Part shown: piece by piece, positions 1,204-39,078 of the stretch
How positions within the stretch are numbered: the stretch's first letter is position 1
How the letters are laid out: each line of letters opens with the position of its first letter
Virus record (IMG/VR): IMGVR_UViG_3300038560_000007
Location: 1 to 64,000 of that record
Strand: one strand, 5' to 3'
Source: a virus
DNA: 64,000 nt
The notes under the pieces: generated by a model
The model's database searches: none
Told to the model about the DNA's origin: nothing
The model's input: the letters and a program-made list of their open reading frames with translations, nothing else
Translations under genes and position numbers: made by a program

Positions 1204-1257
1204 AGGACGAAACCTGCGACGGCAGGTCCACGGCTAGAAGCCGTGCCGATGAGTCCT
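1204..1257 (+). ncRNA. type II hammerhead ribozyme 1
   Basis: Helix II is AGGAC (1204-1208) with GTCCT (1253-1257). GAAA is at 1209-1212. Helix III is CCTGC (1213-1217) with GCAGG (1222-1226). The cleavage triplet GTC is at 1226-1228, with predicted cleavage after C1228. Helix I is CACGGCT/AGCCGTG. The second conserved strand is CCGATGA (1246-1252), where the consensus is CUGANGA, so position 4 is C not U and activity may be reduced. The ribozyme sits 20 nt before the start at 1278. Confidence 0.9.
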
Positions 1258-1277
1258 AGCAAAGAAGGAGACCAGCC

Positions 1278-1568
1278 ATGAAGAAGTTCGTAGTCCGAGT
1301 ATACGAAGTGACCATCAAGGACACCGATCAGTACAATAACCTGATGGACCAGATGATCTCAGACGACCCGGAGATCGAGACCGGCAACAACGGAGACCCG
1401 TCCAGAGAGTGGCTGGACGAGCAACTGGCGCTCCGGATGACGTACCAGTACGACATGGGCAATTACGTGACCGCGGACGCGGCCGTCAACGGAGTCCTTG
1501 AAGGGGACGCGTACGTGGTCAGCCTGGACCAAGTCAATCGCATCCAGAACATCCTGCTAGAACGGTGA
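1278..1568 (+). CDS. hypothetical protein, 96 aa
   Basis: The start follows GAAGGAGACCAGCC, just behind ribozyme 1. The protein is acidic and starts with a beta strand (KKFVVRVYEVTIK), followed by a helix and ending with DQVNRIQNILLER. It has no Cys cluster or membrane segment and no family is recognised. After predicted cleavage its mRNA would begin with the helix I hairpin directly before the RBS. Confidence 0.8.
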   Translation: MKKFVVRVYEVTIKDTDQYNNLMDQMISDDPEIETGNNGDPSREWLDEQLALRMTYQYDMGNYVTADAAVNGVLEGDAYVVSLDQVNRIQNILLER

Positions 1569-1616
1569 CGTCACCAAGCTAAGTCACACCCGCCTACATC
1601 AGCCCCCTTCAAAATT

Positions 1617-1628
1617 AAAGATCTTGAA
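1617..1628 (+). promoter_or_regulatory. AAGATCTTGAA box before P2
   Basis: AAAGATCTTGAA ends 8 bp before the -35 of P2. It matches the boxes at 107-120 and 4762-4773. It is a candidate operator; the binding protein is not known. Confidence 0.55.
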
Positions 1629-1636
1629 AAAAGTCC

Positions 1637-1666
1637 TTGAAGGGGCCGCGAGGTCCGCGCTATAAT
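1637..1666 (+). promoter_or_regulatory. promoter P2
   Basis: -35 TTGAAG (1637-1642), 18-bp spacer, -10 TATAAT (1661-1666), followed by AAAAGTAGAAGC as in the other members of the set. It would transcribe 1712-4082 as one ribozyme-punctuated unit up to P3. Confidence 0.85.
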
Positions 1667-1711
1667 AAAAGTAGAAGCAAAAAACCAACACAAATCCGAG
1701 GCAGGATCAAG

Positions 1712-1933
1712 ATGAAGATTTCGTACCTCAAGGATCAGAAGTTCAGGCCAAAGCCGGTTACGACGAACATGAACTACGTCCGTTGTCCGTGCGAGCCTAA
1801 GACCAACGTACCAGGTTGGTTGCTGGACAAGATCGCCGAGGAGCGCCTGACCGGAAGGTTCAACGTACGAAAGTCAAACCTATGCCCCGGGTGCGGAGAG
1901 TACCGCTCCGTGAACGGTACATGTAGCTGCTAG
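1712..1933 (+). CDS. small zinc-ribbon protein, 73 aa
   Basis: Two cysteine pairs suggest a zinc ribbon: CPC in the first half and CPGCGEY...CSC at the end. The body is basic (MKISYLKDQKFRPKP). The ATG at 1712 is chosen because the in-frame start at 1637 lies inside promoter P2; GAGGCAGGATC precedes it at a weak RBS. Zinc-ribbon peptides of this kind in phages often bind nucleic acid or host transcription factors, but no specific family is recognised. Ribozyme 2 starts immediately after the stop codon. Confidence 0.75.
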   Translation: MKISYLKDQKFRPKPVTTNMNYVRCPCEPKTNVPGWLLDKIAEERLTGRFNVRKSNLCPGCGEYRSVNGTCSC

Positions 1934-1935
1934 GA

Positions 1936-1999
1936 CCGAACAGGACGAAACGTACGAGAGTACGTCCACGACTGAGAGTCGTGCCGATGAGTCCATCGG
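1936..1999 (+). ncRNA. type II hammerhead ribozyme 2
   Basis: Helix II core is GGAC (1943-1946) with GTCC (1991-1994). It extends beyond an internal loop by CCGA (1936-1939) with TCGG (1996-1999). GAAA is at 1947-1950. Helix III is CGTAC-GAGA-GTACG. Cleavage is predicted after C1966. Helix I is CACGACT/AGTCGTG. The conserved strand is CCGATGA, again C at position 4. It lies between the stop at 1933 and the RBS of 2024. Confidence 0.92.
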
Positions 2000-2023
2000 A
2001 ACAAACACGGAAGGAATCCCGTC

Positions 2024-2467
2024 ATGAGTGCAAACCGCAATCGCCGGCCCACGCGTCCGCAGGCCCCGAAGGCGCAGGAGCCCAAGACCGGCACCGAGCT
2101 CGTCCTCTACGGGGACGGCAAGGAGGAGTTGATCGAGGGAACCTTCGTCGAGGAGCCCGAGACCAACGAGCCAGAGACCGACGCCGAAGAGGCCGACGTC
2201 ACCGAGACGGCCGAGGACGCTCCCAAGCGGAAGCGCGTGTTCGTCCTCACACCGTACCAGGCGGCCAAGATCGTGAACCGCAAGCTGATCGAGGCAGGCA
2301 TCGAGAAGGTGCTGCCGCCCCAGATGCTGTACACGTACCGCAAGCAGGGCAAGTTCACCTCGCTGAAGGCCGAAGACGGCCGCTACATGGTGGAGCCGAT
2401 GAGCTTCCTGGCCTGGTGCGACAGCTACATCGCCCGAGTCGCCAAGCGCGAGGCCGAGGCAGCCTGA
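2024..2467 (+). CDS. paralog family member 2 with acidic N-terminus, 147 aa
   Basis: The N-terminal 70 residues are rich in Glu/Asp and Pro and probably disordered. The family core follows at about residue 73 (VFVLTPYQAAKIVNRKLIEAG, then LPPQMLYTYRKQGKF, then FLAWCDSYIARVAKRE). It is clearly related to 238-495 and 4907-5353. The start has GGAAGGA upstream, behind ribozyme 2. An acidic tail joined to a conserved basic core is seen in DNA-mimic and nucleoid proteins, but the role here is unknown. Confidence 0.88.
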   Translation: MSANRNRRPTRPQAPKAQEPKTGTELVLYGDGKEELIEGTFVEEPETNEPETDAEEADVTETAEDAPKRKRVFVLTPYQAAKIVNRKLIEAGIEKVLPPQMLYTYRKQGKFTSLKAEDGRYMVEPMSFLAWCDSYIARVAKREAEAA

Positions 2468-2476
2468 CCGAGAGAA

Positions 2477-2528
2477 AGGACGAAACCGCTTCGGCGGTCC
2501 ACGGATTAGATCCGTGCTGACGAGTCCT
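2477..2528 (+). ncRNA. type II hammerhead ribozyme 3
   Basis: Helix II is AGGAC (2477-2481) with GTCCT (2524-2528). GAAA is at 2482-2485. Helix III is CCGC with a TTCG tetraloop and GCGG. Cleavage is predicted after C2499. Helix I is CACGGAT/ATCCGTG. The conserved strand CTGACGA matches consensus. It begins 9 nt after one stop codon and ends 19 nt before the next start. Confidence 0.96.
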
Positions 2529-2547
2529 AGAAAGGCAGGAATCAGAA

Positions 2548-2781
2548 ATGGCCAGCATCTTTGCCGGGCTCACGCCCGAGCAGATCAAAGCCCTTACCCC
2601 TCAGGAGATCGGCGACCTGGTAGACAAGTCAATGGTGGGGCGTGTCTGGATCTCCAGGAGCAGCATCACCTGGAGCGGTACTCTCCGCAGGGTCGGAGAG
2701 GCACGAGCAGTGCCGGAGGCGGAGGTTGAGCAGTTTCTCGCTGACGGGTGGCACCTAGTCACACCCGAGTCTGGTGACTGA
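2548..2781 (+). CDS. hypothetical protein, 77 aa
   Basis: It starts MASIFAGLTPEQIKALTPQEI and ends EVEQFLADGWHLVTPESGD, with a beta-rich middle (GRVWISRSSITWSGTLRRV). AAAGGCAGGAATCAGAA is upstream. Proteins ending with a residue run like FLADGWHLV are common small phage products of unknown role. Ribozyme 3 directly precedes it. Confidence 0.8.
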   Translation: MASIFAGLTPEQIKALTPQEIGDLVDKSMVGRVWISRSSITWSGTLRRVGEARAVPEAEVEQFLADGWHLVTPESGD

Positions 2782-2788
2782 CGTGAAC

Positions 2789-2917
2789 ATGGAGACGCTG
2801 TGGCCGTGCCTCATGCACATCGCCACGTGTGGACACCATCTCGCGTACACGCTTCACGTGTTCCACGAGGGTGGACGAACGTTCGGAGCGTACTACTTCA
2901 AGCTAGTACGCAACTAA
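2789..2917 (+). CDS. small His/Cys-containing protein, 42 aa
   Basis: An ATG frame from 2789 to a TAA at 2915-2917 encodes METLWPCLMHIATCGHHLAY and then an aromatic, basic tail ending YYFKLVRN. It begins 7 nt after the preceding stop, so translation may be coupled; there is no strong RBS. The next gene starts 9 nt later with its RBS in the gap. It fits the spacing better than the longer overlapping frame at 2800-3156. Confidence 0.5.
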   Translation: METLWPCLMHIATCGHHLAYTLHVFHEGGRTFGAYYFKLVRN

Positions 2918-2926
2918 GGAGGGAAC

Positions 2927-3214
2927 ATGGAACACAAGAGCTCCGACGGCCACGCGATCGAGGTCGGCAAGAAGTTCTGGAACAACGACCTTCGCGTGTG
3001 CGAGATCACCGAGGTTGCTTCCTGGAGCAACGAGTACGCCGACACCGGGTGCACGCAGACGTGGCACGACACCAACAAGGGCCACTTCGACACGCTGGAC
3101 GGATCGATGAAGCCGTACGGCAGGCTAGCCCGCTACTACGGCGGCAAGGATGCTGAGCGGTACGAAGCAGGTACGTACTACGGAGACATCAGCGGTCTTC
3201 CCAATCCGCTGTAA
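2927..3214 (+). CDS. hypothetical protein, 95 aa
   Basis: The start follows AACTAAGGAGGGAAC, a strong RBS. The sequence is rich in aromatic residues and Gly (VGKKFWNNDLRVCEIT, ending GDISGLPNPL) and looks like a compact beta domain. No family is recognised. It ends 3 nt before ribozyme 4. Confidence 0.82.
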   Translation: MEHKSSDGHAIEVGKKFWNNDLRVCEITEVASWSNEYADTGCTQTWHDTNKGHFDTLDGSMKPYGRLARYYGGKDAERYEAGTYYGDISGLPNPL

Positions 3215-3217
3215 CCA

Positions 3218-3270
3218 AGGACGAAACGGCGAGAGCCGTCCACGGCTAGAGAGCCGTGCTGAAGAGTCCT
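3218..3270 (+). ncRNA. type II hammerhead ribozyme 4
   Basis: Helix II is AGGAC (3218-3222) with GTCCT (3266-3270). GAAA is at 3223-3226. Helix III is CGGC-GAGA-GCCG. Cleavage is predicted after C3240. Helix I is CACGGCT/AGCCGTG. The conserved strand is CTGAAGA. An 18-nt piece (3228-3245) recurs exactly in the leader at 4845-4862. Confidence 0.96.
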
Positions 3271-3311
3271 GTAGGAGGACGACCATAGAGCAGTTCAAGG
3301 GAGAGTAGAAG

Positions 3312-3644
3312 ATGAAAGTCAAAGTATGCAAGTGTGGCCACGGTGACTATGAGCATATCGGGTCCGAGAAGAACGGCCCGTGTTCTCATTTGCTGCTAGT
3401 CTCAGAGCGCCATAGGTTCTGCGACTGCATGAAGTTCGAAGAGGAGGTGACAAAACTGGATATGGACGAGGCACACCTGAAGGCCGTCAAGGTCTTCCGC
3501 GAGGCCATGCAGGCCCGCATCGAAGAGTACATCAGCGAGTTCGAGCGCGAGGACGTCGACATCGATGGAGACTACGACCAGCCGATCCTAATGTACGACT
3601 TCGGCCTGTACCTACAGGTCGCCAGCGGGCACCACCCCGAGTAG
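3312..3644 (+). CDS. zinc-binding N-terminal domain protein, 110 aa
   Basis: The first 40 residues carry CKCGHGDYEH, CSHLL and FCDC, a likely zinc site of the kind seen in small phage proteins with a CxCGH..H motif. The rest is helical and acidic. Residues EYISEFERED are encoded by a 32-nt stretch (3524-3555) that is identical to 34172-34203 in an unrelated gene. The RBS is weak (GGGAGAGTAGAAG) and sits behind ribozyme 4. No named family. Confidence 0.82.
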   Translation: MKVKVCKCGHGDYEHIGSEKNGPCSHLLLVSERHRFCDCMKFEEEVTKLDMDEAHLKAVKVFREAMQARIEEYISEFEREDVDIDGDYDQPILMYDFGLYLQVASGHHPE

Positions 3645-3653
3645 CAAGGGACA

Positions 3654-3706
3654 GGGCGAAACGCGCTTCGGCGCGTCCACAGGTAAGTGCCTGTGCTGAT
3701 GAGCCC
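3654..3706 (+). ncRNA. type II hammerhead ribozyme 5
   Basis: Helix II is GGGC (3654-3657) with GCCC (3703-3706), a full compensatory change from the usual GGAC/GTCC. GAAA is at 3658-3661. Helix III is CGCGC, TTCG, GCGCG. Cleavage is predicted after C3677. Helix I is CACAGG/CCTGTG. CTGATGA is perfect consensus. It ends 11 nt before the next start. Confidence 0.97.
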
Positions 3707-3717
3707 AAGGAGGGCAC

Positions 3718-3990
3718 ATGTCAAAGATCCAGATCGAGCTGGACCTGACGACGATGCAATATCGTCGCCTGGTCGAGGACGCCGAAGAGGCGATGGACGC
3801 TGCGAGTAACCCGAACTCGTATGAGGCGTTCTACCAGCTTGCCAAGGCCATTTCCGACGCCAAGGGCTGGGAGCTCACCGCTCGCGACCCGGCTACGTGG
3901 AAAGAGGACCAGAGCGCCGAGTGGCGTGAGGAGCAGCAGGCGCAGTACGACGAGCAGTATCCGACACTCCCAGACATGCCGGCTCCATGA
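3718..3990 (+). CDS. hypothetical protein, 90 aa
   Basis: The start follows CCAAGGAGGGCAC. The protein is acidic and mostly helical (MSKIQIELDLTTMQYRRLV, ending QYPTLPDMPAP) with no Cys. No family is recognised. Its stop overlaps the next small gene as ATGA. Confidence 0.82.
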   Translation: MSKIQIELDLTTMQYRRLVEDAEEAMDAASNPNSYEAFYQLAKAISDAKGWELTARDPATWKEDQSAEWREEQQAQYDEQYPTLPDMPAP

Positions 3991-4082
3991 GAGAGCGGTT
4001 CCACGACTTCGTCTCCGAGATGCTGGTCGCCTTCTTCGAGGCGTACCAGCTCGCGAAGGCACAGAAAAGTTCCCATCGTTAG
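3987..4082 (+). CDS. small helical peptide, 31 aa
   Basis: It starts in an ATGA overlap with the previous stop and ends TAG just before promoter P3. The sequence MRERFHDFVSEMLVAFFEAY is an amphipathic helix. The overlap is the usual coupling arrangement in this genome. The size makes it tentative. Confidence 0.5.
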   Translation: MRERFHDFVSEMLVAFFEAYQLAKAQKSSHR

Positions 4083-4086
4083 GGCC

Positions 4087-4116
4087 TTGCTTTTTGCTCG
4101 AGAGCCCCTATATAAT
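4087..4116 (+). promoter_or_regulatory. promoter P3
   Basis: -35 TTGCTT (4087-4092), 18-bp spacer containing GCTCGAG, -10 TATAAT (4111-4116), then AGAAGTAGAGCC. It is nearly identical to P5 at 11274 over the -35 and spacer, and drives the gene at 4147. Confidence 0.9.
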
Positions 4117-4146
4117 AGAAGTAGAGCCAAACTCCAAGGAGATACC

Positions 4147-4305
4147 GTGACCACACACAGGCGGCTACAGAAGACCATGCGCAGCCCGGCACGCGCGAAG
4201 CGCCGGGCCAAGAAGACGCCTTCGGCCATGCGCGAGCGCATGTACATGGCGTTCAGGGCACCACGTGAGGAGCTGGACAGTCTGTTCCTGCACCTCAAGG
4301 GCTAA
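4147..4305 (+). CDS. small basic protein, 52 aa
   Basis: The GTG at 4147 follows CAAGGAGATACC; an in-frame ATG at 4087 lies inside the promoter and is rejected. The N-terminal half is strongly basic (RRLQKTMRSPARAKRRAKK), suggesting nucleic-acid binding. The C-terminal half is a short acidic helix ending DSLFLHLKG. It ends 2 nt before ribozyme 6. No family is recognised. Confidence 0.72.
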   Translation: MTTHRRLQKTMRSPARAKRRAKKTPSAMRERMYMAFRAPREELDSLFLHLKG

Positions 4306-4307
4306 CA

Positions 4308-4360
4308 GGACGAAACGCGGAGTGTCCGCGTCCTAGCGTAAGGCGCTAGCTGACGAGTCC
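4308..4360 (+). ncRNA. type II hammerhead ribozyme 6
   Basis: Helix II is GGAC (4308-4311) with GTCC (4357-4360). GAAA is at 4312-4315. Helix III is CGCGGA-GTG-TCCGCG. Cleavage is predicted after C4332. Helix I is CTAGCG/CGCTAG. The conserved strand is CTGACGA. It starts 2 nt after a stop codon and ends 22 nt before the next start. Confidence 0.96.
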
Positions 4361-4382
4361 GTCAGTACAACAAGGAGGGCAC

Positions 4383-4685
4383 ATGCCAGGAGACCCTAAG
4401 CCATCGCTGAATGCAGTCGAATTCGCTGCCGCGTTCGCGAAGGTATTCGCCCACGCGATCAGCCGAATAGGGCTAGAATGCCCCATTTTCGTCGACGACT
4501 CTGTGGGCACCACGTACGTAGTCGACAGCGTTACGTACGAGGAAGACATGGCGGGAGCCGTCGTAGTTCGTATCCACGAGCTGCCCAAGAGTCGGCATGA
4601 GCTACCTCGAGATGCGCAGGTCATCAGCGAGACGTGGGCCGAGTTCATCGAAGACACCGGTTCCTGTCTACGTACCGGAGCATGA
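4383..4685 (+). CDS. hypothetical protein, 100 aa
   Basis: The start follows CAAGGAGGGCAC behind ribozyme 6. It is a mixed alpha/beta sequence (ISRIGLECPIFVDDSVGTTY) ending TWAEFIEDTGSCLRTGA. The WAEFIEDT segment is encoded by 26 nt (4634-4659) identical to 25374-25399 in the gene at 25189. No family is recognised. Confidence 0.82.
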   Translation: MPGDPKPSLNAVEFAAAFAKVFAHAISRIGLECPIFVDDSVGTTYVVDSVTYEEDMAGAVVVRIHELPKSRHELPRDAQVISETWAEFIEDTGSCLRTGA

Positions 4686-4761
4686 AGAGCCGGTCATGGC
4701 AATCCGCTTGGATGACCCCTACTCGAGATAGGTCATCAATTGATTTGCCCAAAAACAATTC

Positions 4762-4773
4762 AAAGATCTTGAA
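4762..4773 (+). promoter_or_regulatory. AAGATCTTGAA box before P4
   Basis: AAAGATCTTGAA, flanked by CAATTC and TTGG, lies 8 bp before the -35 of P4. It matches the boxes at 107-120 and 1617-1628. All three precede units that contain a member of the four-paralog family. Confidence 0.55.
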
Positions 4774-4781
4774 TTGGAGCC

Positions 4782-4811
4782 TTGCTAAGTCCGCTAGGTC
4801 TCCTATATAAT
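4782..4811 (+). promoter_or_regulatory. promoter P4
   Basis: -35 TTGCTA (4782-4787), 18-bp spacer, -10 TATAAT (4806-4811) in TATATAAT, then TGAAGTATAAGC. It drives the gene at 4907 through a 90-nt structured leader. Confidence 0.88.
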
Positions 4812-4829
4812 TGAAGTATAAGCAAGAAC

Positions 4830-4887
4830 GATCTGCGAGAGGTAGGCGAGAGCCGTCCACGGACGGTTGTCGGGTGCAACTCGCATC
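4830..4887 (+). ncRNA. structured leader with hammerhead remnant
   Basis: GAT-CT-GCGAG (4830-4839) pairs with CTCGCATC (4880-4887). Inside, 4845-4862 is an exact 18-nt copy of helix III plus cleavage site of ribozyme 4 (3228-3245). The GAAA core, the CUGANGA strand and helix II are missing, so self-cleavage is not expected. It looks like a decayed ribozyme kept in, or turned into, a hairpin leader. Confidence 0.6.
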
Positions 4888-4906
4888 GGGAAGAGAGGTG
4901 ATACAC

Positions 4907-5353
4907 ATGACTGACACCGACACCAAGGCTCCGGAGACCGAGGCCAAGGTCGAGAAGAAGGCCAAGCGCGCCTACGTCTTCACGCCGTTCCAGGCGATGA
5001 AGAAGGTGAACGCGATGCTGGCAGAGGCGGGTGTTGAGCGGACCCTTCAGGGCCCCATGCTCTACTCCTACGCCAACTCCGGCAAGTTCAAGGTCGCTCC
5101 GGCGCAGGTCGACATCGATGCCAAGGCTGAGAAGCCGAGGCAGGAGGTCGACGAGGAGTCCTTCACCGAGTGGGCAAAGGCGTTCGTTGAGAGTGCCAAG
5201 AACGGTACCCGCAACACCTCCAAGAAGGCGGACAAGGCCGATGAGGCCGAGGACGCTGACGACAACGAGGTCGACGACGAAGACGAGTCCGATGAGGACG
5301 AGGACGCCGACGAGCTCGAGGACGACGACGAGGAGCTCGACGAGGCCGAGTAG
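4907..5353 (+). CDS. paralog family member 3 with acidic C-terminus, 148 aa
   Basis: The family core lies at residues 24-65 (YVFTPFQAMKKVNAMLAEAG, then GPMLYSYANSGKF) and continues in FTEWAKAFVESAKN near residue 90. The last 40 residues are almost all Asp/Glu. The ATG at 4907 follows AAGAGAGGTGATACAC; the in-frame start at 4811 is at the transcription start and is rejected. A terminator-like hairpin follows. It is probably a DNA-associated protein whose acidic tail tunes binding; that is inference. Confidence 0.87.
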   Translation: MTDTDTKAPETEAKVEKKAKRAYVFTPFQAMKKVNAMLAEAGVERTLQGPMLYSYANSGKFKVAPAQVDIDAKAEKPRQEVDEESFTEWAKAFVESAKNGTRNTSKKADKADEAEDADDNEVDDEDESDEDEDADELEDDDEELDEAE

Positions 5354-5375
5354 GTCAGGAGCTCCTCCGGTAACT

Positions 5376-5401
5376 GAGTGGGCCTCTTCGGAGGCCCACT
5401 C
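5376..5401 (+). terminator. strong hairpin, probable terminator
   Basis: GAGTGGGCCTC (5376-5386), TTCG tetraloop, GAGGCCCACTC (5391-5401): 11 perfect base pairs, 22 nt after the stop of the gene at 4907. No U tract follows, as is common for terminators in high-GC actinobacteria, so it may instead protect a 3' end. Confidence 0.7.
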
Positions 5402-5406
5402 GGTAC

Positions 5407-5439
5407 AGGACAGTACCAACCACGGCTAGTAAGCCGAGC
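5407..5439 (+). other. probable hammerhead remnant
   Basis: AGGAC is at 5407-5411, followed after 9 nt by CCACGGCTAGTAAGCCGAGC, which resembles the cleavage side and helix I of ribozyme 1 (CCACGGCTAGAAGCCGTGC). GAAA, helix III and CUGANGA are missing. Further on, GCCCC (5493-5497) and GGGGC (5501-5505) form a small hairpin before the gene at 5512. Confidence 0.45.
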
Positions 5440-5511
5440 ACAATCCCGGGAACAATCCCGGACAAAAAGGCAGACACAAGAGCCCCAAAGGGGCAGGAAG
5501 CAAGGTCCAAA

Positions 5512-5865
5512 ATGCAGGACACAACCAAAGAGCATGGCACGGACTTCAGGCCGGGTAAGGCCCCCCTGAGGGTCACGCTGACCGGCAACGTCGCCCAGTT
5601 CCTGGCGAACGCTGGGCAGGAGATCGCGGACGCGTACGATGCGGCCGACGACGTCGACGAGCTGATCAAGCTCCTGGAAGGCCATGCCGACTGGACGTCG
5701 TACGACATGGACTGGACGCCTCCGCGTGGCGGCGCGAAGCAGACGTTCCACAACGTCTACCGGTCCACCCAGACCTCCGCTACGGAGGAGCTCCGCGTCA
5801 TCGTGACCAAGAGCAGCCGCGGCGACCTCAGCGTCACCTTCCACACCTGGTGGAAGCCGGCGTAA
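5512..5865 (+). CDS. hypothetical protein, 117 aa
   Basis: It begins MQDTTKEHGTDFRPGKAPLR, then a helical middle (VAQFLANAGQEIADAYDAAD) and a beta-rich C-terminus with DLSVTFHTWWKPA. There are no Cys residues or membrane segment. Upstream, GGGGCAGGAAGCAAGG is the likely RBS, partly within a hairpin. No family is recognised. Confidence 0.78.
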   Translation: MQDTTKEHGTDFRPGKAPLRVTLTGNVAQFLANAGQEIADAYDAADDVDELIKLLEGHADWTSYDMDWTPPRGGAKQTFHNVYRSTQTSATEELRVIVTKSSRGDLSVTFHTWWKPA

Positions 5866-6009
5866 CAAGCCCCCGGTCCGGGGTGAAAGTGCACTGCAAG
5901 AGAGCCACACGTGCGGGACGACAGCCTGGTGCGGTTGCGCGCCCAGGCAAGAGAACCTGCGGGTGAGGACGACGGCAGGGCCAAGTACCCTCGGATCGGG
6001 TCCAACCAA
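5866..6009 (+). other. structured non-coding gap before ribozyme 7
   Basis: Several helices can form: CCCCG-GTC-CGGGG near 5872, and GCCTGG with CCAGGC around 5926-5947. CCTGC (5956-5960) and GACGGCAGG (5971-5979) echo helix III of ribozyme 1 with about 10 extra nt between the strands. A 27-codon GTG frame from 5883 exists but lacks a clear RBS. It may be a decayed array unit or a separate structured RNA. Confidence 0.45.
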
Positions 6010-6062
6010 GGTCGAAACGCCCTGTGAGGGCGTCGGCGGATTATGTCCGTCCTGATGAGACC
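6010..6062 (+). ncRNA. type II hammerhead ribozyme 7
   Basis: Helix II is GGTC (6010-6013) with GACC (6059-6062), a compensatory change from GGAC/GTCC. GAAA is at 6014-6017. Helix III is CGCCC-TGTGA-GGGCG. Cleavage is predicted after C6034. Helix I is GGCGGA/TCCGTC. CTGATGA is perfect consensus. The RBS of the gene at 6074 follows immediately. Confidence 0.97.
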
Positions 6063-6073
6063 AAGGAGGCACA

Positions 6074-6322
6074 ATGGCTAGGCACGCTCGCGAAGAGGTC
6101 CTCGCAGAAATCGTCGAGGCCGACAAGCACGAGGCCCTGCTTATCGACACGATGTCCGCTCAGGATGTCGCCGAGGTTCTATTCGGCCTCTTCGGCGAAG
6201 CGACACTCGACGACGTCGGCGTGTTTCTCCGAACACGAAACGATGCCGAGTTCGCGATCCGATCAATCCGGCCGATTCTTCCCAACGAGGACATCATGGA
6301 CGGGAACACCGGAGCCGAGTAG
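6074..6322 (+). CDS. hypothetical protein, 82 aa
   Basis: It starts behind CCAAGGAGGCACA. The protein is helical and acidic (MARHAREEVLAEIVEADKHE, ending DIMDGNTGAE) with no Cys. No family is recognised. Its stop is 1 nt before ribozyme 8. Confidence 0.82.
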   Translation: MARHAREEVLAEIVEADKHEALLIDTMSAQDVAEVLFGLFGEATLDDVGVFLRTRNDAEFAIRSIRPILPNEDIMDGNTGAE

Positions 6323-6323
6323 A

Positions 6324-6376
6324 GGACGAAACGCCCGCCGAGGGCGTCCACGGGTAAGGCCCGTGCTGACGAGTCC
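6324..6376 (+). ncRNA. type II hammerhead ribozyme 8
   Basis: Helix II is GGAC (6324-6327) with GTCC (6373-6376). GAAA is at 6328-6331. Helix III is CGCCC/GGGCG. Cleavage is predicted after C6348. Helix I is CACGGG/CCCGTG. The conserved strand is CTGACGA. It fills the gap between the stop at 6322 and the RBS of the ATPase gene at 6400. Confidence 0.97.
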
Positions 6377-6399
6377 GTCAGAGGCAAGGAGGGCACAGC

Positions 6400-7572
6400 A
6401 TGGAAGACACCACCCGAGAGGGGGTGAATCCCACGACTGAACGTACTGGCCTGGACAAGGCTATGTGCGAGGCTGAAACAGTCTATGAAGACTTCAGCCC
6501 GAACATGAGGAAGGCTTACAGGACGGTATTGGTTACCTTCGCGACGCATACACACTGTGTCGACATGGAAGGCAAGCTAGTATCCGACGCGACGCCGATA
6601 CCGGCGATCTTGAGCGACAAGCCGAACAGCGGTAAGACGACAGTCCTAGAACTAACGCGGCTGATGTCTCGCCGGGGCTACAAGGTCAGCGCGCGGAACA
6701 CGACCGCGCCCGGCATGCTCAGGGCCATCCAGGAGGAAAAGGCATCATTGTTCCTCGATCAGTTCGAAAGAATGATCAGTCATACTGGTCAGGGATTCGC
6801 CAACCGCCTAGACATCATCGAGACGGGGTATGAGAGGACAGGACAAAGCCTGGACGCGAATGGATTCCACTCGACGTTCTGCGCAAAGGCTCTAACGAGT
6901 CTACAGTCAATGTTCCTTGGCAATCCGAACCTCGAGGCAGTACGATCAAGATCGATTCCGATCTTCGTCGAGCCCATGCCCAGCGGCATGATGAATGACG
7001 ACGATTGGTACGATCCGGCGTTCCACGCCGCGATGGTCAAGAGCATAGGTGAACGCCTCGACAACGAGGTGCGAGTCGCGCTCGAGGACATCATGGTGGC
7101 ACGACCCTCAATGGAAGGCATCTCATCTAGGATGCGCCAGATCTGGAGGCCGCTTTTCCGTATCGCCCACGTGGCGGGTGGAGAATGGCCAGAGAGAGTC
7201 AAGGCCGCGTGCCGAGAGATCGCCCTAGGGCTGGAGACGAGCAAGAAGGTCCTCAGTCCACAGGAGCAGTTGATCGAGGACATCGGAATGGTCGTTGGCC
7301 TGACAGAAGGCGACCTCACGATCGGACAGATTGTTGATCGAGTCTTCGAAGAGGGTCTGCTCAGTGGGAAGTACTGGTCCAGTGAAGGGCAGGGATCCAG
7401 GGCCGTTGGTCGAGCGATGCGAGAGCTCGATGTTGACCAGTGGCGAATCTGGAAGGATGGAACTAACCGGCCAGGCTTCAAGAGGGCGGACCTAGAAAAG
7501 TCACCCTCGCTCGCTCGCTTCATCGCTTCACCAGATCTTGCAGAGCAAGATGAAGCTGCAGATGTAGCCTGA
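6400..7572 (+). CDS. DUF3631-type P-loop ATPase, 390 aa
   Basis: A Walker A motif (SDKPNSGKTTV) lies near residue 80 and a likely Walker B (ASLFLDQFE) near residue 120. The C-terminal half has the DUF3631 signature (RMRQIWRPLFRIAHVAGGEW, then ERVKAACREIALGL). This family occurs in actinobacterial phages and mobile elements, often beside or fused to primase-helicase domains, and is thought to act in replication. The start follows AAGGAGGGCACAGC behind ribozyme 8. It is the largest gene of the ribozyme-punctuated region. Confidence 0.85.
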   Translation: MEDTTREGVNPTTERTGLDKAMCEAETVYEDFSPNMRKAYRTVLVTFATHTHCVDMEGKLVSDATPIPAILSDKPNSGKTTVLELTRLMSRRGYKVSARNTTAPGMLRAIQEEKASLFLDQFERMISHTGQGFANRLDIIETGYERTGQSLDANGFHSTFCAKALTSLQSMFLGNPNLEAVRSRSIPIFVEPMPSGMMNDDDWYDPAFHAAMVKSIGERLDNEVRVALEDIMVARPSMEGISSRMRQIWRPLFRIAHVAGGEWPERVKAACREIALGLETSKKVLSPQEQLIEDIGMVVGLTEGDLTIGQIVDRVFEEGLLSGKYWSSEGQGSRAVGRAMRELDVDQWRIWKDGTNRPGFKRADLEKSPSLARFIASPDLAEQDEAADVA

Positions 7573-7581
7573 GGAGACGAA

Positions 7582-7635
7582 AGGTCGAAACGCCCTTCGG
7601 GGCGTCCACGTCTGAGAGACGTGCTGAAGAGACCT
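7582..7635 (+). ncRNA. type II hammerhead ribozyme 9
   Basis: Helix II is AGGTC (7582-7586) with GACCT (7631-7635). GAAA is at 7587-7590. Helix III is CGCCC, TTCG, GGGCG. Cleavage is predicted after C7606. Helix I is CACGTCT/AGACGTG. The conserved strand is CTGAAGA. It is the last unit of the array. Confidence 0.97.
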
Positions 7636-25840: not shown

Positions 25841-25985
25841 GCAAGTCCCGTTCTGCACGCACAAGGACGACGACGGCGTCGAGGACTGCGGGGTTCGAAT
25901 GATCAGGTTCCTGAACCCGTTCCGCTTCGTCTGCCCACGCGGGCATGGCAATACGCATCGGCTCCTGCGCATTGTGGTTCGGTGA
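25824..25985 (+). CDS. small zinc-finger protein, 53 aa
   Basis: ATG at 25824 (METTTKQVPFCTHKDDDGVE), overlapping the acidic gene by 17 nt. Residues CTH, CGVR and FVCPRGHGNTH give a likely C-H-C-C-H zinc site. GTGA overlap with queE follows. Confidence 0.65.
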   Translation: METTTKQVPFCTHKDDDGVEDCGVRMIRFLNPFRFVCPRGHGNTHRLLRIVVR

Positions 25986-26758
25986 TGTCAGACCTCTTGA
26001 ACGTTAACGAAATCTTTGGCCCGACTATCCAGGGGGAAGGTCCGGCGACTGGAAGGCTGGCTGCCTTCGTTCGCCTGGCCAATTGCAACCTGACTTGTAA
26101 GTGGTGCGACACGCCATACACATGGGCCTTTACGTCCAACAAGGCAGGGCATCATCAGTCTGGGAAGCAGTACGACAAGGCTGAAGAGGTTCACTCTATG
26201 AACCCGCTCGAGATCATGGAGCGCCTCCACGAGATCGTTCCGCCTCGGCAGAACCGATTTGGGTCGATCGGCAGGATCGGGACGCTCGTTGTCATCTCTG
26301 GAGGCGAGCCTCTTATTCAGGCAGTCCCACTCCTGGCGCTAGCTAGGCTAATGTGGGCGCAAGGCTACACCGTCCACATTGAGACGGCAGGCACACGTTA
26401 TCCAGGACAGCTAGCTAGCTTCGTCGACACGTTCGTCGTTTCTCCGAAGTTGGAGAACTCAGGCAACCTGATCGACAAGAGATTCAGGCCAGCCATCCTC
26501 CGAGAGTTTGCGACGACGCTATCGAACCAGACCTGGTTCAAGTTCGTCGTAGAGGGAGTAGCCGACCTCAAAGAGGTCGACTACATCGTGAATGAATGCA
26601 ACATCCGACGCGACCGAGTAATGATCATGCCCGAAGGTACCAAGACGGACAAGATCATCGCGAAGGCCCAAGAGATCGTCGTGGACGTCCTGGGAAGGGG
26701 CTACGGTCTCACTCTACGAAACCATGTCTTTATCTGGGATGACGTGAGGGCACACTAG
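25982..26758 (+). CDS. queE: QueE-type 7-carboxy-7-deazaguanine synthase, 258 aa
   Basis: Radical SAM cluster CxxxCxxC is present as CNLTCKWCD near residue 38, preceded by the QueE-type substrate loop FGPTIQGEGPATGRLAAFVR. SGGEPLIQ near residue 108 is the SAM-binding GGE. QueE converts 6-carboxy-tetrahydropterin to 7-carboxy-7-deazaguanine (CDG), the first pyrrolopyrimidine base of the pathway. It belongs with queD and folE at 32.9-34.0 kb. GTG at 25982 or ATG at 25985 is the start. Confidence 0.95.
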   Translation: MMSDLLNVNEIFGPTIQGEGPATGRLAAFVRLANCNLTCKWCDTPYTWAFTSNKAGHHQSGKQYDKAEEVHSMNPLEIMERLHEIVPPRQNRFGSIGRIGTLVVISGGEPLIQAVPLLALARLMWAQGYTVHIETAGTRYPGQLASFVDTFVVSPKLENSGNLIDKRFRPAILREFATTLSNQTWFKFVVEGVADLKEVDYIVNECNIRRDRVMIMPEGTKTDKIIAKAQEIVVDVLGRGYGLTLRNHVFIWDDVRAH

Positions 26759-32905: not shown

Positions 32906-33448
32906 ATGTACCGCATATCAAAGAAGTTCGAGTTCAGTGCAGATCACGCACTCAAAGGACTTCCTCCGGAGCACCAGTGCTCTAGGTTCCATGGACATAA
33001 CTACGTAGTTGACGTAGTGCTCGAGTCGGCCGTTCTAAATGAGGCCGACTTCGTTCGAGACTACGGTGAACTCAGTCCAATCAAGGATTGGATCAACAAG
33101 ACGCTCGATCATCGCTGGCTTGGCTGGGGAATGATCGCTCGCCTAGAAGGTACGGAGCCATGTACGGAGCCATGTACGGAGTGCGAGAACGGCCCCTGGC
33201 ACGTTAGCCAGATTACTAAGCCTGTTCTTGATTTCAACCCGACGGCCGAGAACATGGCGAAGTTCATCTACACCTTCGCCTGTACGATTGCACCCGAAGT
33301 CTCCATGGTCGGAGTGAGTGAGACACCGAAGACGTGGGCCTGGTACACCCCAAACAACCTCACGCTCGACGTCTTAGAGCACGCGGTAGCTACGTTGCCT
33401 CAACCTCTCAGGACCAGCTTCCGCGCCGCGCTTAGGGACAATACATGA
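32906..33448 (+). CDS. queD: QueD, 6-carboxy-5,6,7,8-tetrahydropterin synthase, 180 aa
   Basis: The family core is FEFSADHALKGLPPEHQC, then SRFHGHNYVVDVVLE: zinc His residues and the catalytic Cys precede HGH. Later HRWLGWGM carries further conserved residues. QueD converts the FolE product to 6-carboxy-tetrahydropterin, the QueE substrate. A 12-bp tandem repeat gives TEPCTEPCTEC near residue 80, an internal duplication that adds cysteines. RBS AGGTGAAGGGACTAC. It overlaps folE by ATGA. Confidence 0.93.
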   Translation: MYRISKKFEFSADHALKGLPPEHQCSRFHGHNYVVDVVLESAVLNEADFVRDYGELSPIKDWINKTLDHRWLGWGMIARLEGTEPCTEPCTECENGPWHVSQITKPVLDFNPTAENMAKFIYTFACTIAPEVSMVGVSETPKTWAWYTPNNLTLDVLEHAVATLPQPLRTSFRAALRDNT

Positions 33449-34041
33449 CATCACCCTCCTGGTCTACATCGATGCCGCTTCTAGCAGATGCTTCTCCTGA
33501 AGAACTCATCCACGAGTTCCTGATGAAGACCTGCCCTGACATCTACAATCCTGACTCGGAGCATTTCAGGGACACTCCGAGACGCTTCACCAAGATGATT
33601 ACGGAGCTCACTTCCTCGGAGGACTTCAAGTTCACTACCTTCGAGGCTTCGGCCAGTGAGATGGTAATCGTTCGCGCGATCAACTTCGTCAGTATGTGTG
33701 CACATCACATCGCGCCGTTCGTCGGGACCTGCCATGTCGGTTATATCCCTGCAGAGAAGGTCGCTGGCATTTCGAAGTTCTCCAGGCATGTCAGACAGTA
33801 CGCACACACTCTGACTAACCAGGAGGCGCTGACGACGAACATCGCAGACTCGCTCGATGATATCCTGGAGCCTCGCGGTGTCGCCGTCATCATGCAGGCA
33901 AGCCACTCGTGTATGAGTACACGCGGGGCGCTGGCTCATGGATCCGATACGGTGACTAGCGCTATGCGAGGCGTGTTCATCGATCACACCAAGACGGCCA
34001 AGTCCGAGTTCATGGCTATCGTAGGTCCGAAGCTCCAATGA
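33445..34041 (+). CDS. folE: GTP cyclohydrolase I (FolE), 198 aa
   Basis: Zinc ligands are in MCAHHIAPF and QASHSCMSTRG, and the central helix is GISKFSRHVRQYAHTLTNQE. The enzyme opens GTP to dihydroneopterin triphosphate, the entry step of folate and 7-deazaguanine synthesis. Placement directly after queD makes the deazaguanine role the likely one. The start overlaps the queD stop; an in-frame ATG nine codons later is an alternative. Confidence 0.93.
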   Translation: MTSPSWSTSMPLLADASPEELIHEFLMKTCPDIYNPDSEHFRDTPRRFTKMITELTSSEDFKFTTFEASASEMVIVRAINFVSMCAHHIAPFVGTCHVGYIPAEKVAGISKFSRHVRQYAHTLTNQEALTTNIADSLDDILEPRGVAVIMQASHSCMSTRGALAHGSDTVTSAMRGVFIDHTKTAKSEFMAIVGPKLQ

Positions 34042-36399: not shown

Positions 36400-39078
36400 T
36401 TGACTACTGAGGCCCTAGAAGTACATCTAGATCCCAAACGCCTCGCTGCTACCGCTCTAGGCGCAAACTGCGCTGGCTGTCCAATGAACGACAACCGAGA
36501 GTACGGCTGCGTTAGCTCAACAGGTCCGCAGAAGGCAGACATTGGCGTCGTAGGGCAGAACCCTGGCCAGCAGGAGATCAGGACTGGCAAGCCTTTCATG
36601 GGACCTTCGGGTCGACTACTCGACCAAGTACTGAAGCACTACAATCTAGATCGTTCAAAGATGTTCATAACGAACGCCTGCCTTTGCGTACATCGGAACG
36701 AGAACATCACACCGCCAGCTGCTGCAGTCGCCGCATGCCGACCTAGACTCATTAACGAATTGCGAGGCCGAGATGTCAAGCAAGTCATCAACCTCGGAAA
36801 GGTCCCAGCTCAAGGACTCTTCGGAGTCAGAGATTCGATCACCTCACTTCGGGTGGGCTCATTCCGAGAGGTGTACGACCTGCCAGGCGTACAAGTCTAT
36901 TCTACGTTCCACCCTGCAGCTTGTCTTCGTAGTTCCGGATTCTTCCCTAGCCTTGTTGCTGATTTTGGTAAGCTTGTCAATCCACCTCCACCTTGGCGGG
37001 AACCTCAGTTCGTGGTATGGGAAGATCCTCATACCGCTATACGAGGCATCCGAGAGATGGAGCGCAGACATATTGATGTCATCACTCTCGACCTCGAGTG
37101 GGCAACACCTTTCGACAAGGACGTCTCTTTCGATCACCCTTACCGATACAAGCTCCTCTGTATCGGCATGGCATACGCAACAGATAAGGCAGTCATCATT
37201 GGCAAGACAGCAAGCCAGTCGATCGCGGTACTAGAGGTACTCCGGCAGTACCTGTCGACCTGCAAAAAGATCGTCTGCCAAAACGGGAAGTCGGACAAGC
37301 AGGGCGCGTACGCCAAGGGCTTCAACTTTGACTTCACCGATGACACCATGCTGTCGAACTACGTTATGGACGAAAGGCCAAGCATCCATGGACTCAAGGT
37401 TCAGCTGGAGGAGAAACTCGGATACCCTCGTTACGGGGATGAGATCAAGCAGTACCTCGGAAAAGGAAAGGCCAGGTCCTTTGCTAACATCCCCCTGGAT
37501 ATCCTGTATCGTTACAACGCGTTCGACACGTGTGGAACTTTCGCTCTCGAGGAGCACAACGGAAAGCTACTGGCTAGCGACGACTGGGCCGAACCGATAC
37601 GGCCTCGAGCTGACGGTGAACGCTGGGGCCTTGTTCGTCTTCACAGCTTCCATGTCGAGACGGCCAACAACCTCGCATACGTTGAGCTCAACGGTTTTCC
37701 CGTTGACCTAGAATGCAACGCCAAGCTGACTGAGAAGTACGACACGATCCTCGCCGGGCTCGAGCAGAACATGTTCGACGCGCTAGCAGGCGTTCGGGAG
37801 GATCCGAAGTTCAATCCTAGATCCCCTCAACAGTTGAAGAAGATCTTTGCCGAGCTAGGTGTTCCGCTCCCTAAGGTTCGTCGACCTAACGGAACGATGT
37901 CGGAGACGACAGACGCAGCGACGCTGAACGACCTGTATGACAAGTACAGATCGATGAAGCAGGTCACACTACAGGCACACATCCTCGACTCGGAAGATAA
38001 CGCTCTCGGTCCCGAGGTGGCTGAAGTCGAAACGCGATCAGTCGAAGTACGATTTCTCGAAGCGCTACTGGCTTATCGCAAGGCGGCTAAGACGAACGGC
38101 ACGTACGTTCGAGGACTGAAAAAGCATGTCTGGAAAGGTCGCGTCTTCCCGACCGTAATGATCCACTCCACCGTCTCTGGGCGTACGAGCCAGAAGAAGC
38201 CATCGCTTCAGGTCATCCCTCACGCCGACGAGATCAAGCGACAGTTCGTCGTGTCCGATTATCACCAGTGGAAGTATGGCTGGAAGCCTCATGAGGACTA
38301 TCACCTGCTAGCCGAGTTCGACTTCAAGCAGATCGAACTGCGAGTCCTCACGTGGCTCGCGGAAGAGGATTACTTCCGAGACATCTTCGAAGATCCTAGT
38401 CGGGACTTGTTTACGGAGCTAGCGGACGTCGTCCACCCTGAGCGTTCATCTAGGACGACAATGCATAAGAAGGACAGGCGTAACATCGTGAAGGCGTTTG
38501 TCTACGGACTCGCTTACGGTCGCGAGGCTGGATCGATCGCCGACGAGTTCAATATTCCTCTCCGGGAAGCCCAACGCATGCAGCGAGAGTTCTTCCAGGT
38601 CATTCCGAAGGTTGCAGCCTTCCGAGAGCAGGTCAAGTGGGCAGCTACGTCTCAGGACGACTTGGTAACTCCGTTCGGCAGGCGCAGACGATTCATGCTT
38701 GTTACCAGTGAGAACAAGAAGGACATTCAGAATGAAGCACTGTCATTCTATCCGCAGTCGATCGCGAGTGACATTTGCATCCAGGCCTTTGATTGGTTGC
38801 GGCCTAAGCTCAAAGGCGTTGCGTGGTGTCGCAATCTTGTTCACGACGCCTTGTTCTGGGAATTTCGCGAAGCCGATCTCGAGTACGTTGCCAACACAGT
38901 CATCACCACTATGCGTGAATCAGCCCGACGGGTCATGGGAGACTACGTACGAATCGATGTAGATGCCGAAGTGGGGCGAACCTGGGGAGACCTAATTAGC
39001 CTGGAGGAGTGGAGAGAAGGAAAGCGACCTTACCCGACATCGATAGTAAAGTGGGAACCAAGTGAACGAGCCAGCTAG
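36400..39078 (+). CDS. uracil-DNA glycosylase fused to DNA polymerase I, 892 aa
   Basis: Residues 20-215 match family 4/5 uracil-DNA glycosylases: CAGCPM cluster, GVVGQNPGQQE (motif A), GKPFMGPSGRLLDQVL, and TFHPAACLR (motif B). Next comes a 3'-5' exonuclease domain (ITLDLEWATPF, then YNAFDTCGTF) and a family A polymerase with DFKQIELRVL (motif A), KAFVYGLAYGREAG (motif B) and NLVHDALFWEF (motif C, Ala where Glu is usual). It replicates phage DNA and can remove uracil. TTG start at 36400; TGGGAGCGA upstream. Confidence 0.93.
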   Translation: MTTEALEVHLDPKRLAATALGANCAGCPMNDNREYGCVSSTGPQKADIGVVGQNPGQQEIRTGKPFMGPSGRLLDQVLKHYNLDRSKMFITNACLCVHRNENITPPAAAVAACRPRLINELRGRDVKQVINLGKVPAQGLFGVRDSITSLRVGSFREVYDLPGVQVYSTFHPAACLRSSGFFPSLVADFGKLVNPPPPWREPQFVVWEDPHTAIRGIREMERRHIDVITLDLEWATPFDKDVSFDHPYRYKLLCIGMAYATDKAVIIGKTASQSIAVLEVLRQYLSTCKKIVCQNGKSDKQGAYAKGFNFDFTDDTMLSNYVMDERPSIHGLKVQLEEKLGYPRYGDEIKQYLGKGKARSFANIPLDILYRYNAFDTCGTFALEEHNGKLLASDDWAEPIRPRADGERWGLVRLHSFHVETANNLAYVELNGFPVDLECNAKLTEKYDTILAGLEQNMFDALAGVREDPKFNPRSPQQLKKIFAELGVPLPKVRRPNGTMSETTDAATLNDLYDKYRSMKQVTLQAHILDSEDNALGPEVAEVETRSVEVRFLEALLAYRKAAKTNGTYVRGLKKHVWKGRVFPTVMIHSTVSGRTSQKKPSLQVIPHADEIKRQFVVSDYHQWKYGWKPHEDYHLLAEFDFKQIELRVLTWLAEEDYFRDIFEDPSRDLFTELADVVHPERSSRTTMHKKDRRNIVKAFVYGLAYGREAGSIADEFNIPLREAQRMQREFFQVIPKVAAFREQVKWAATSQDDLVTPFGRRRRFMLVTSENKKDIQNEALSFYPQSIASDICIQAFDWLRPKLKGVAWCRNLVHDALFWEFREADLEYVANTVITTMRESARRVMGDYVRIDVDAEVGRTWGDLISLEEWREGKRPYPTSIVKWEPSERAS

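Follow-up and report, generated by a model that had tools for sequence, protein, structure and literature searches.

Nine compact type II hammerhead ribozymes at gene boundaries of a phage genome, with a probable role in mRNA processing

The window analysed here is a stretch of 64,000 nt (positions 1 to 64,000) of the IMG/VR virus record IMGVR_UViG_3300038560_000007, a contig of 79,614 bp with the phage hallmark genes portal, family A DNA polymerase and tail. Between positions 1,204 and 7,635 it carries nine elements that, judging from the sequence, are genuine type II hammerhead ribozymes. They form a compact subclass that lacks the customary pseudoknot and are situated at boundaries between rightward, mostly small early genes. 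The analysis establishes their structure, core, covariation, position, recurrence and conservation; cutting during infection, and what it would achieve, is inferred, and self-cleavage at specific gene boundaries into short, hairpin-capped mRNAs is probably the best explanation of the array. This partly supports the interpretation given in the original prediction, made from the letters of the window; processing of this kind had already been proposed by Perreault et al. (2011; PMC3088659) for clustered hammerheads of phages and prophages that lie beside single genes or short blocks of genes. Our array, on one strand of a phage contig and flanking single genes or short blocks, belongs to this known kind, as a variant that is longer and differs in structure.

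Identification of nine type II hammerhead ribozymes

A descriptor (GAAA, helix III, UH cleavage site, helix I, CNGANGA and helix II) run on both strands of the window retrieved exactly nine matches, all on the + strand and at the places originally predicted, except that copy 2, thought to start at 1936, begins at 1943 by its stem II; the predicted cleavage positions agree for all nine (Table 1). Simulated sequences of the same length (first-order Markov, 40 runs) yielded a mean of 0.075 matches with a loose version of the descriptor and 0 with a stricter one. A covariance model built from the nine, run unfiltered on the whole contig, scored them at 64–76 bits; the next match, at 15.4 bits, is at chance level, so that no tenth hammerhead was found in the 79,614 bp, and within the window the same model placed none inside genes or antisense.

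All nine have the type II permutation, with stems I and III closed by loops and stem II open, and the hammerhead is the minimum-energy fold of every copy. The core (C3 U4 G5 A6 N7 G8 A9 / G12 A13 A14, the A15.1-U16.1 pair and H17) is intact, with the exception of U4C in HH1 and HH2, which read CCGATGA as first noted. The claimed covariation was also borne out: 99.3 % of the helix cells across the nine copies are paired, both sides have changed in 11 of 16 pairs, and every helix contains compensatory changes. Pairing was never as high in 500 shuffles, and it dropped to 21–43 % in slid registers. Spacing to the flanking genes is likewise as described before, with seven ribozymes starting 1–9 nt 3′ of a stop codon (the other two at 144 and 176 nt) and all nine ending 11–41 nt ahead of the next start codon.

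Two places were considered for a decayed tenth copy, 4842–4890 and 5404–5440, which have short stretches in common with HH4 or HH1, and were rejected, having neither a core nor a model call. The first of them, a leader 3′ of the promoter at 4782, shares GGCGAGAGCCGTCCACGG with HH4 without the ribozyme core and is perhaps a remnant.

A compact subclass without the loop I pseudoknot

The nine copies share permutation, core and cleavage site with the Rfam family Hammerhead_II (RF02276), but their stem II is 4 bp long, their loop I is short, and loop I forms no pseudoknot with the tail. Because the pseudoknot is absent, none reaches the curated cut-off of 37 bits: with a lax limit four were found, at 26.9–35.9 bits. 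In the covariance-model search originally suggested as a check, the Rfam model reports nothing at its own cut-off, whereas the model of the nine themselves separates them. The type II form described in the literature has its loop I paired to the 3′ tail (PMC3088659); against the consensus of at least 4 bp of Perreault et al. (2011), the window copies give at most 2 consecutive Watson-Crick pairs, and in the compact set from Streptomyces phages the pseudoknot signal is absent (5 % versus 6 % with shuffled tails).

In this compact form, stem II is preceded by an A and loop I begins with a U, both of which are present in 9/9 window copies. We examined these positions in IMG/VR phage contigs fetched with a strict type II pattern, a census in which array counts are lower bounds and not frequencies. 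Among the matches listed, the position immediately 5′ to the 4-bp stem II was A in 179 of 190 distinct copies, and the A also holds in 107 of the 114 copies where no stop codon overlaps that base; the first base of loop I was usually U. Among 179 distinct phage copies, A and U were both present in 171, both missing in seven and discordant in one (Fisher p 8e-12, a value that treats as independent copies that are not fully so). The seven double losses come from seven different contigs and have different loops. Since A and U occur or vanish together, these results suggest that a direct A-U contact from the stem II flank to loop I may replace the pseudoknot, analogous to the reverse Hoogsteen pair that types I and III are reported to conserve (PMC6155905). 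The correlation provides a concrete structural prediction for hammerheads that lack the known pseudoknot. Helix III was capped by a GNRA or UNCG tetraloop in 67/190 copies of the same sample.

Recurrence in other phages

Covariance-model matches occurred in 118 of the 120 IMG/VR records of the strict-pattern scan, with arrays of at least 10 copies in two records and of at least 9, 8, 7, 7, 6 and 6 in others. Nine in a row, originally regarded as unusual, are therefore not unique, since other phages hold 6–10 and clusters had already been published. Among 164 distinct copies from other phages, 94 % lie within 60 nt after a stop codon (mostly from −5 to +9) and 87 % precede a start codon with a ribosome-binding site, as against 48 % and 12 %, respectively, in an antisense control. 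Such arrays have gone largely unseen because few copies pass the Rfam cut-off, with only two matches passing it across 15 IMG/VR array loci, which together contain dozens of copies. Types I and III gave 2 and 5 matches versus 285 of type II in the same loci, a ratio biased by the choice of most loci with a type II pattern.

BLAST searches with single ribozymes and with the Yara region identified compact copies in the cultured Streptomyces phages Yara (8), Lizz (8), Dryad (7), Wentworth (6), Rooney (6) and phiRKBJ001 (6), unannotated in all records examined; in Yara and phiRKBJ001, the two tested, none passes the Rfam cut-off. These arrays resemble that of the window in their 6–8 type II copies per genome at gene boundaries, with A before stem II and U at loop I, although they belong to a different phage lineage and helix III is often longer. 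At orthologous sites of the six phages the ribozyme is kept while its helices change with compensation. One orthologous site has CCGANGA in all five of the phages that hold it (Table 1), the same U4C variant as in HH1 and HH2. Counted across all loci, position 4 reads U 285 times and C nine times, but never A or G. In a viroid hammerhead, U4C reduces activity in vitro but enough is retained in vivo (PMC3088659), and the viroid is infectious. As a side observation, the annotated start of Yara gene 88 (L154:4888–5139) lies 5′ of a hammerhead at 4920–4989, and the true start is probably further downstream.

The Arquatrovirinae phages Daudau, Alvy, Caelum and Pablito, also of Streptomyces, carry type II hammerheads in the gaps between small early genes, in one direction as in the window, but mostly with a 3-bp stem II and pseudoknot potential; 29 copies in the four phages pass the Rfam cut-off, versus none in the window. 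The existence of two designs, compact and pseudoknotted, in the same niche argues for selection on cutting at gene boundaries. The Arquatrovirinae arrays (L162, L163, L164, L165) are not annotated in their records, and the host is S. lividans JI 1326 for two of these phages.

The sets tested by Perreault et al. (2011) were small (such as a triple in A. tumefaciens) and their clusters were of mixed type, whereas the window has nine copies, all type II. A literature search that left most subscription journals uncovered turned up no description of such arrays in Streptomyces phages.

Gene junctions and promoters in the array

In an audit of all junctions between 893 and 7658, genes no more than 9 nt apart never had a ribozyme between them, whereas every wider junction contained a ribozyme (nine), a promoter (three, one of them called by eye) or a strong hairpin (one). 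A scan identified no + strand terminator-like site in the array gaps. Since promoters lie within the array, it is not one operon as originally predicted. The 12-mer AAAGATCTTGAA occurs in three exact + copies (108–119, 1617–1628 and 4762–4773), each ca. 10–20 nt 5′ of a sigma-70-like −35 box, with 0.18 occurrences expected by chance when one mismatch is allowed, and is likely a regulator site common to early promoters.

The claim that each gene would be left on its own mRNA stands for four of the eight segments between ribozymes (HH2-HH3, HH4-HH5, HH7-HH8 and HH8-HH9, with one gene each) and fails for the rest: HH1-HH2 holds two genes with a promoter between them, HH5-HH6 two genes and a promoter, HH6-HH7 three genes and a promoter, and HH3-HH4 three closely spaced genes.

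Table 1. Ribozymes and other features of the array region, and the orthologous U4C site of Streptomyces phages
Feature	Position	Strand	Remarks
HH1	1204–1257	+	type II; U4C core CCGATGA; predicted cut after C1228; 71.8 bits
HH2	1942–1995	+	type II; U4C core CCGATGA; predicted cut after C1966; 69.8 bits
HH3	2477–2528	+	type II; cUUCGg loop III; predicted cut after C2499; 67.6 bits
HH4	3218–3270	+	type II; predicted cut after C3240; 64.3 bits
HH5	3653–3707	+	type II; stem II GGGC/GCCC; cUUCGg loop III; predicted cut after C3677; 72.8 bits, Rfam 35.9
HH6	4307–4361	+	type II; predicted cut after C4332; 68.4 bits
HH7	6009–6063	+	type II; stem II GGTC/GACC; predicted cut after C6034; 68.7 bits, Rfam 26.9
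HH8	6323–6377	+	type II; predicted cut after C6348; 75.6 bits, Rfam 31.8
HH9	7582–7635	+	type II; stem II GGTC/GACC; cUUCGg loop III; predicted cut after C7606; 74.9 bits, Rfam 26.9
Sigma-70-like promoter with upstream AAAGATCTTGAA	108–168 (promoter 140–168)	+	ahead of array; consensus scan
Sigma-70-like promoter with AAAGATCTTGAA	1617–1666 (promoter 1637–1666)	+	between HH1 and HH2; consensus scan
Weaker promoter-like stretch (TATAATA)	ca. 4093–4116	+	between HH5 and HH6; by eye, not called by consensus scan
Sigma-70-like promoter with AAAGATCTTGAA	4762–4811 (promoter 4782–4811)	+	between HH6 and HH7; consensus scan
13-bp hairpin, UUCG loop, no U-tract	5374–5403	+	the only wide junction with neither ribozyme nor promoter
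Three closely spaced genes	2548–2781, 2783–2917, 2927–3214 (span 2548–3214)	+	no ribozymes between
DUF3631 gene	6400–7572	+	alone between HH8 and HH9
U4C orthologous site	L155:6279, L159:6503, L160:7612, L161:7296, L158:6822		five cultured Streptomyces phages

Proposed processing of phage mRNA and alternative explanations

Transcripts from the promoters in and ahead of the array would span several small genes. Downstream of a stop codon and ahead of the ribosome-binding site that follows, each ribozyme would fold and cut after GUC. The downstream product would then open directly with the helix I hairpin, whose first base would carry the 5′-OH 39–71 nt ahead of the start codon; the upstream product would end with the helix III hairpin plus one C carrying a 2′,3′-cyclic phosphate. 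Because stems I and III, which meet at the cut, are both closed hairpins, no long single-stranded end would be left; the fold thus predicts the hairpin-capped ends already envisaged in the original prediction. The resulting mRNAs would be short, mostly covering one to three genes, and both of their ends would be hairpins that should resist 5′-end-dependent and 3′-exonuclease decay; neighbouring genes would be uncoupled. Decay that depends on the 5′ end acts poorly on a 5′-OH that is base-paired, and 3′ exonucleases act poorly on a near-blunt 3′ hairpin with a cyclic phosphate, which favours processing into such mRNAs.

This processing is further favoured because the nine cores are intact with compensatory helices, because wide and close junctions differ so consistently in content, and because no terminator-like sites occupy the gaps. 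The placement of the copies from other phages, well above the antisense control, and the compensated conservation at orthologous Streptomyces phage sites point in the same direction, as does the activity of clustered phage hammerheads of the same type, three sets of which cut in vitro and one in E. coli (PMC3088659). Several points weigh against it: among the nine copies, cutting does not alter the predicted access to the ribosome-binding site in a consistent way, the gain in stability is argued solely from the modelled structure of the ends, HH1 and HH2 carry the variant that lowers activity in the viroid hammerhead (PMC3088659), and only half of the segments hold a single gene.

The ribozymes could instead be mainly down-regulators or timers, severing genes from upstream ribosome traffic and starting decay, with a terminating ribosome delaying the folding of stem II so that cutting would rise as upstream translation falls. 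In the 154 copies that follow a stop codon, the ribozyme mostly begins −5 to +9 nt from it, which lies within the footprint of a terminating ribosome, but compact genomes yield the same spacing and blunt hairpin ends suggest protection and not decay, so that we regard this as unlikely. A sealing of the segments between two ribozymes into circular mRNAs by an RtcB-type ligase appears more doubtful still; although the 5′-OH and 2′,3′-cyclic phosphate of a double cut fit, no RtcB was found on the phage contig, and Perreault et al. sought circular or spliced products and found none (PMC3088659).

Marginally less probable again is the idea that cutting is incidental to elements acting as gene-shuffling punctuation (recombination cassettes) or as a selfish repeat. 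Helix III is swapped wholesale between orthologous sites, and none of the array genes tested is in common with other IMG/VR array loci; on the other hand, the copies are not identical in sequence, with conservation confined to what the ribozyme requires, their compensatory changes show selection on the fold, and the window has none inside genes or antisense. The least credible explanation is that they are inactive look-alikes, decayed or arisen by chance. Both the scores of all nine below the Rfam cut-off and the U4C of two copies would agree with this, but simulated sequences yield about none, covariation is strong, such scores are common to nearly all of the compact subclass, and position 4 is never A or G, with U4C kept at one orthologous site in five phages. 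Beyond mRNA processing in this array, a broader and rather speculative idea, somewhat more plausible than any of these alternatives, is that a compact hammerhead held by one A-U contact is a general phage gene separator, largely missed by the Rfam cut-off, in which the terminating ribosome would hold off the cut, so that cutting would report the end of upstream translation.

Three other ideas were dropped. Opening of the ribosome-binding site triggered by cleavage had no consistent effect in the predictions; pairing between the ribosome-binding site and the freed 3′ strand of stem II, noticed on visual inspection of some copies, is expected from composition (GTCC versus GGA); and a link to the aminoglycoside sensitivity of Streptomyces phages goes back to a passing mention (PMC9239200).

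Other features of the contig

Among the genes tested in the array region, DUF3631 was the sole Pfam family above the cut-off. The DUF3631 gene had no match in named phages by tblastn, a pattern search of IMG/VR for relatives of this gene and of the DNA polymerase confirmed none, and DNA similarity to named phages was confined to one short, low-complexity acidic stretch. Three paralogous small proteins (238–495, 2024–2467 and 4907–5353; 29–40 % identity) have the core TPYQAAK.VN...LPPQMLYTY..GK, and the third ends in a long acidic tail. Two non-coding stretches lie between a gene and a ribozyme, 1028–1203 before HH1 and 5866–6009 before HH7, the latter with a very stable predicted fold (−69.6 kcal/mol over 144 nt); both could be structured RNAs freed by the ribozyme. 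Short direct repeats (ccctatgcag; aggcaaggagggcttgatctgactatgcag) occur at the contig start, 1–90.

Elsewhere, the contig encodes a QueD-like/6-pyruvoyl tetrahydropterin synthase (32906–33448), a GTP cyclohydrolase I (33445–34041) and a radical SAM protein (25982–26758), and QueC is found at L125:13406–14146. These are parts of the 7-deazaguanine pathway, and the phage DNA may therefore carry a modified guanine. The family A DNA polymerase (36400–39078) has an N-terminal uracil-DNA glycosylase domain in the same frame.

Significance

What hammerheads do in phages had no settled answer in 2011, when small clusters were the tested cases (PMC3088659), and was still open in a 2017 review that repeats that account (PMC6155905); a 2023 paper found ribozymes enriched near other ribozymes and Mu-like phage genes, for reasons unknown (PMC10085705). 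Arrays of 6–8 copies in culturable Streptomyces phages, with conserved sites and natural variants such as U4C and swapped helix III, make this role directly testable, and whether viruses cut long messages into separate ones with such RNAs is now open to bench testing.

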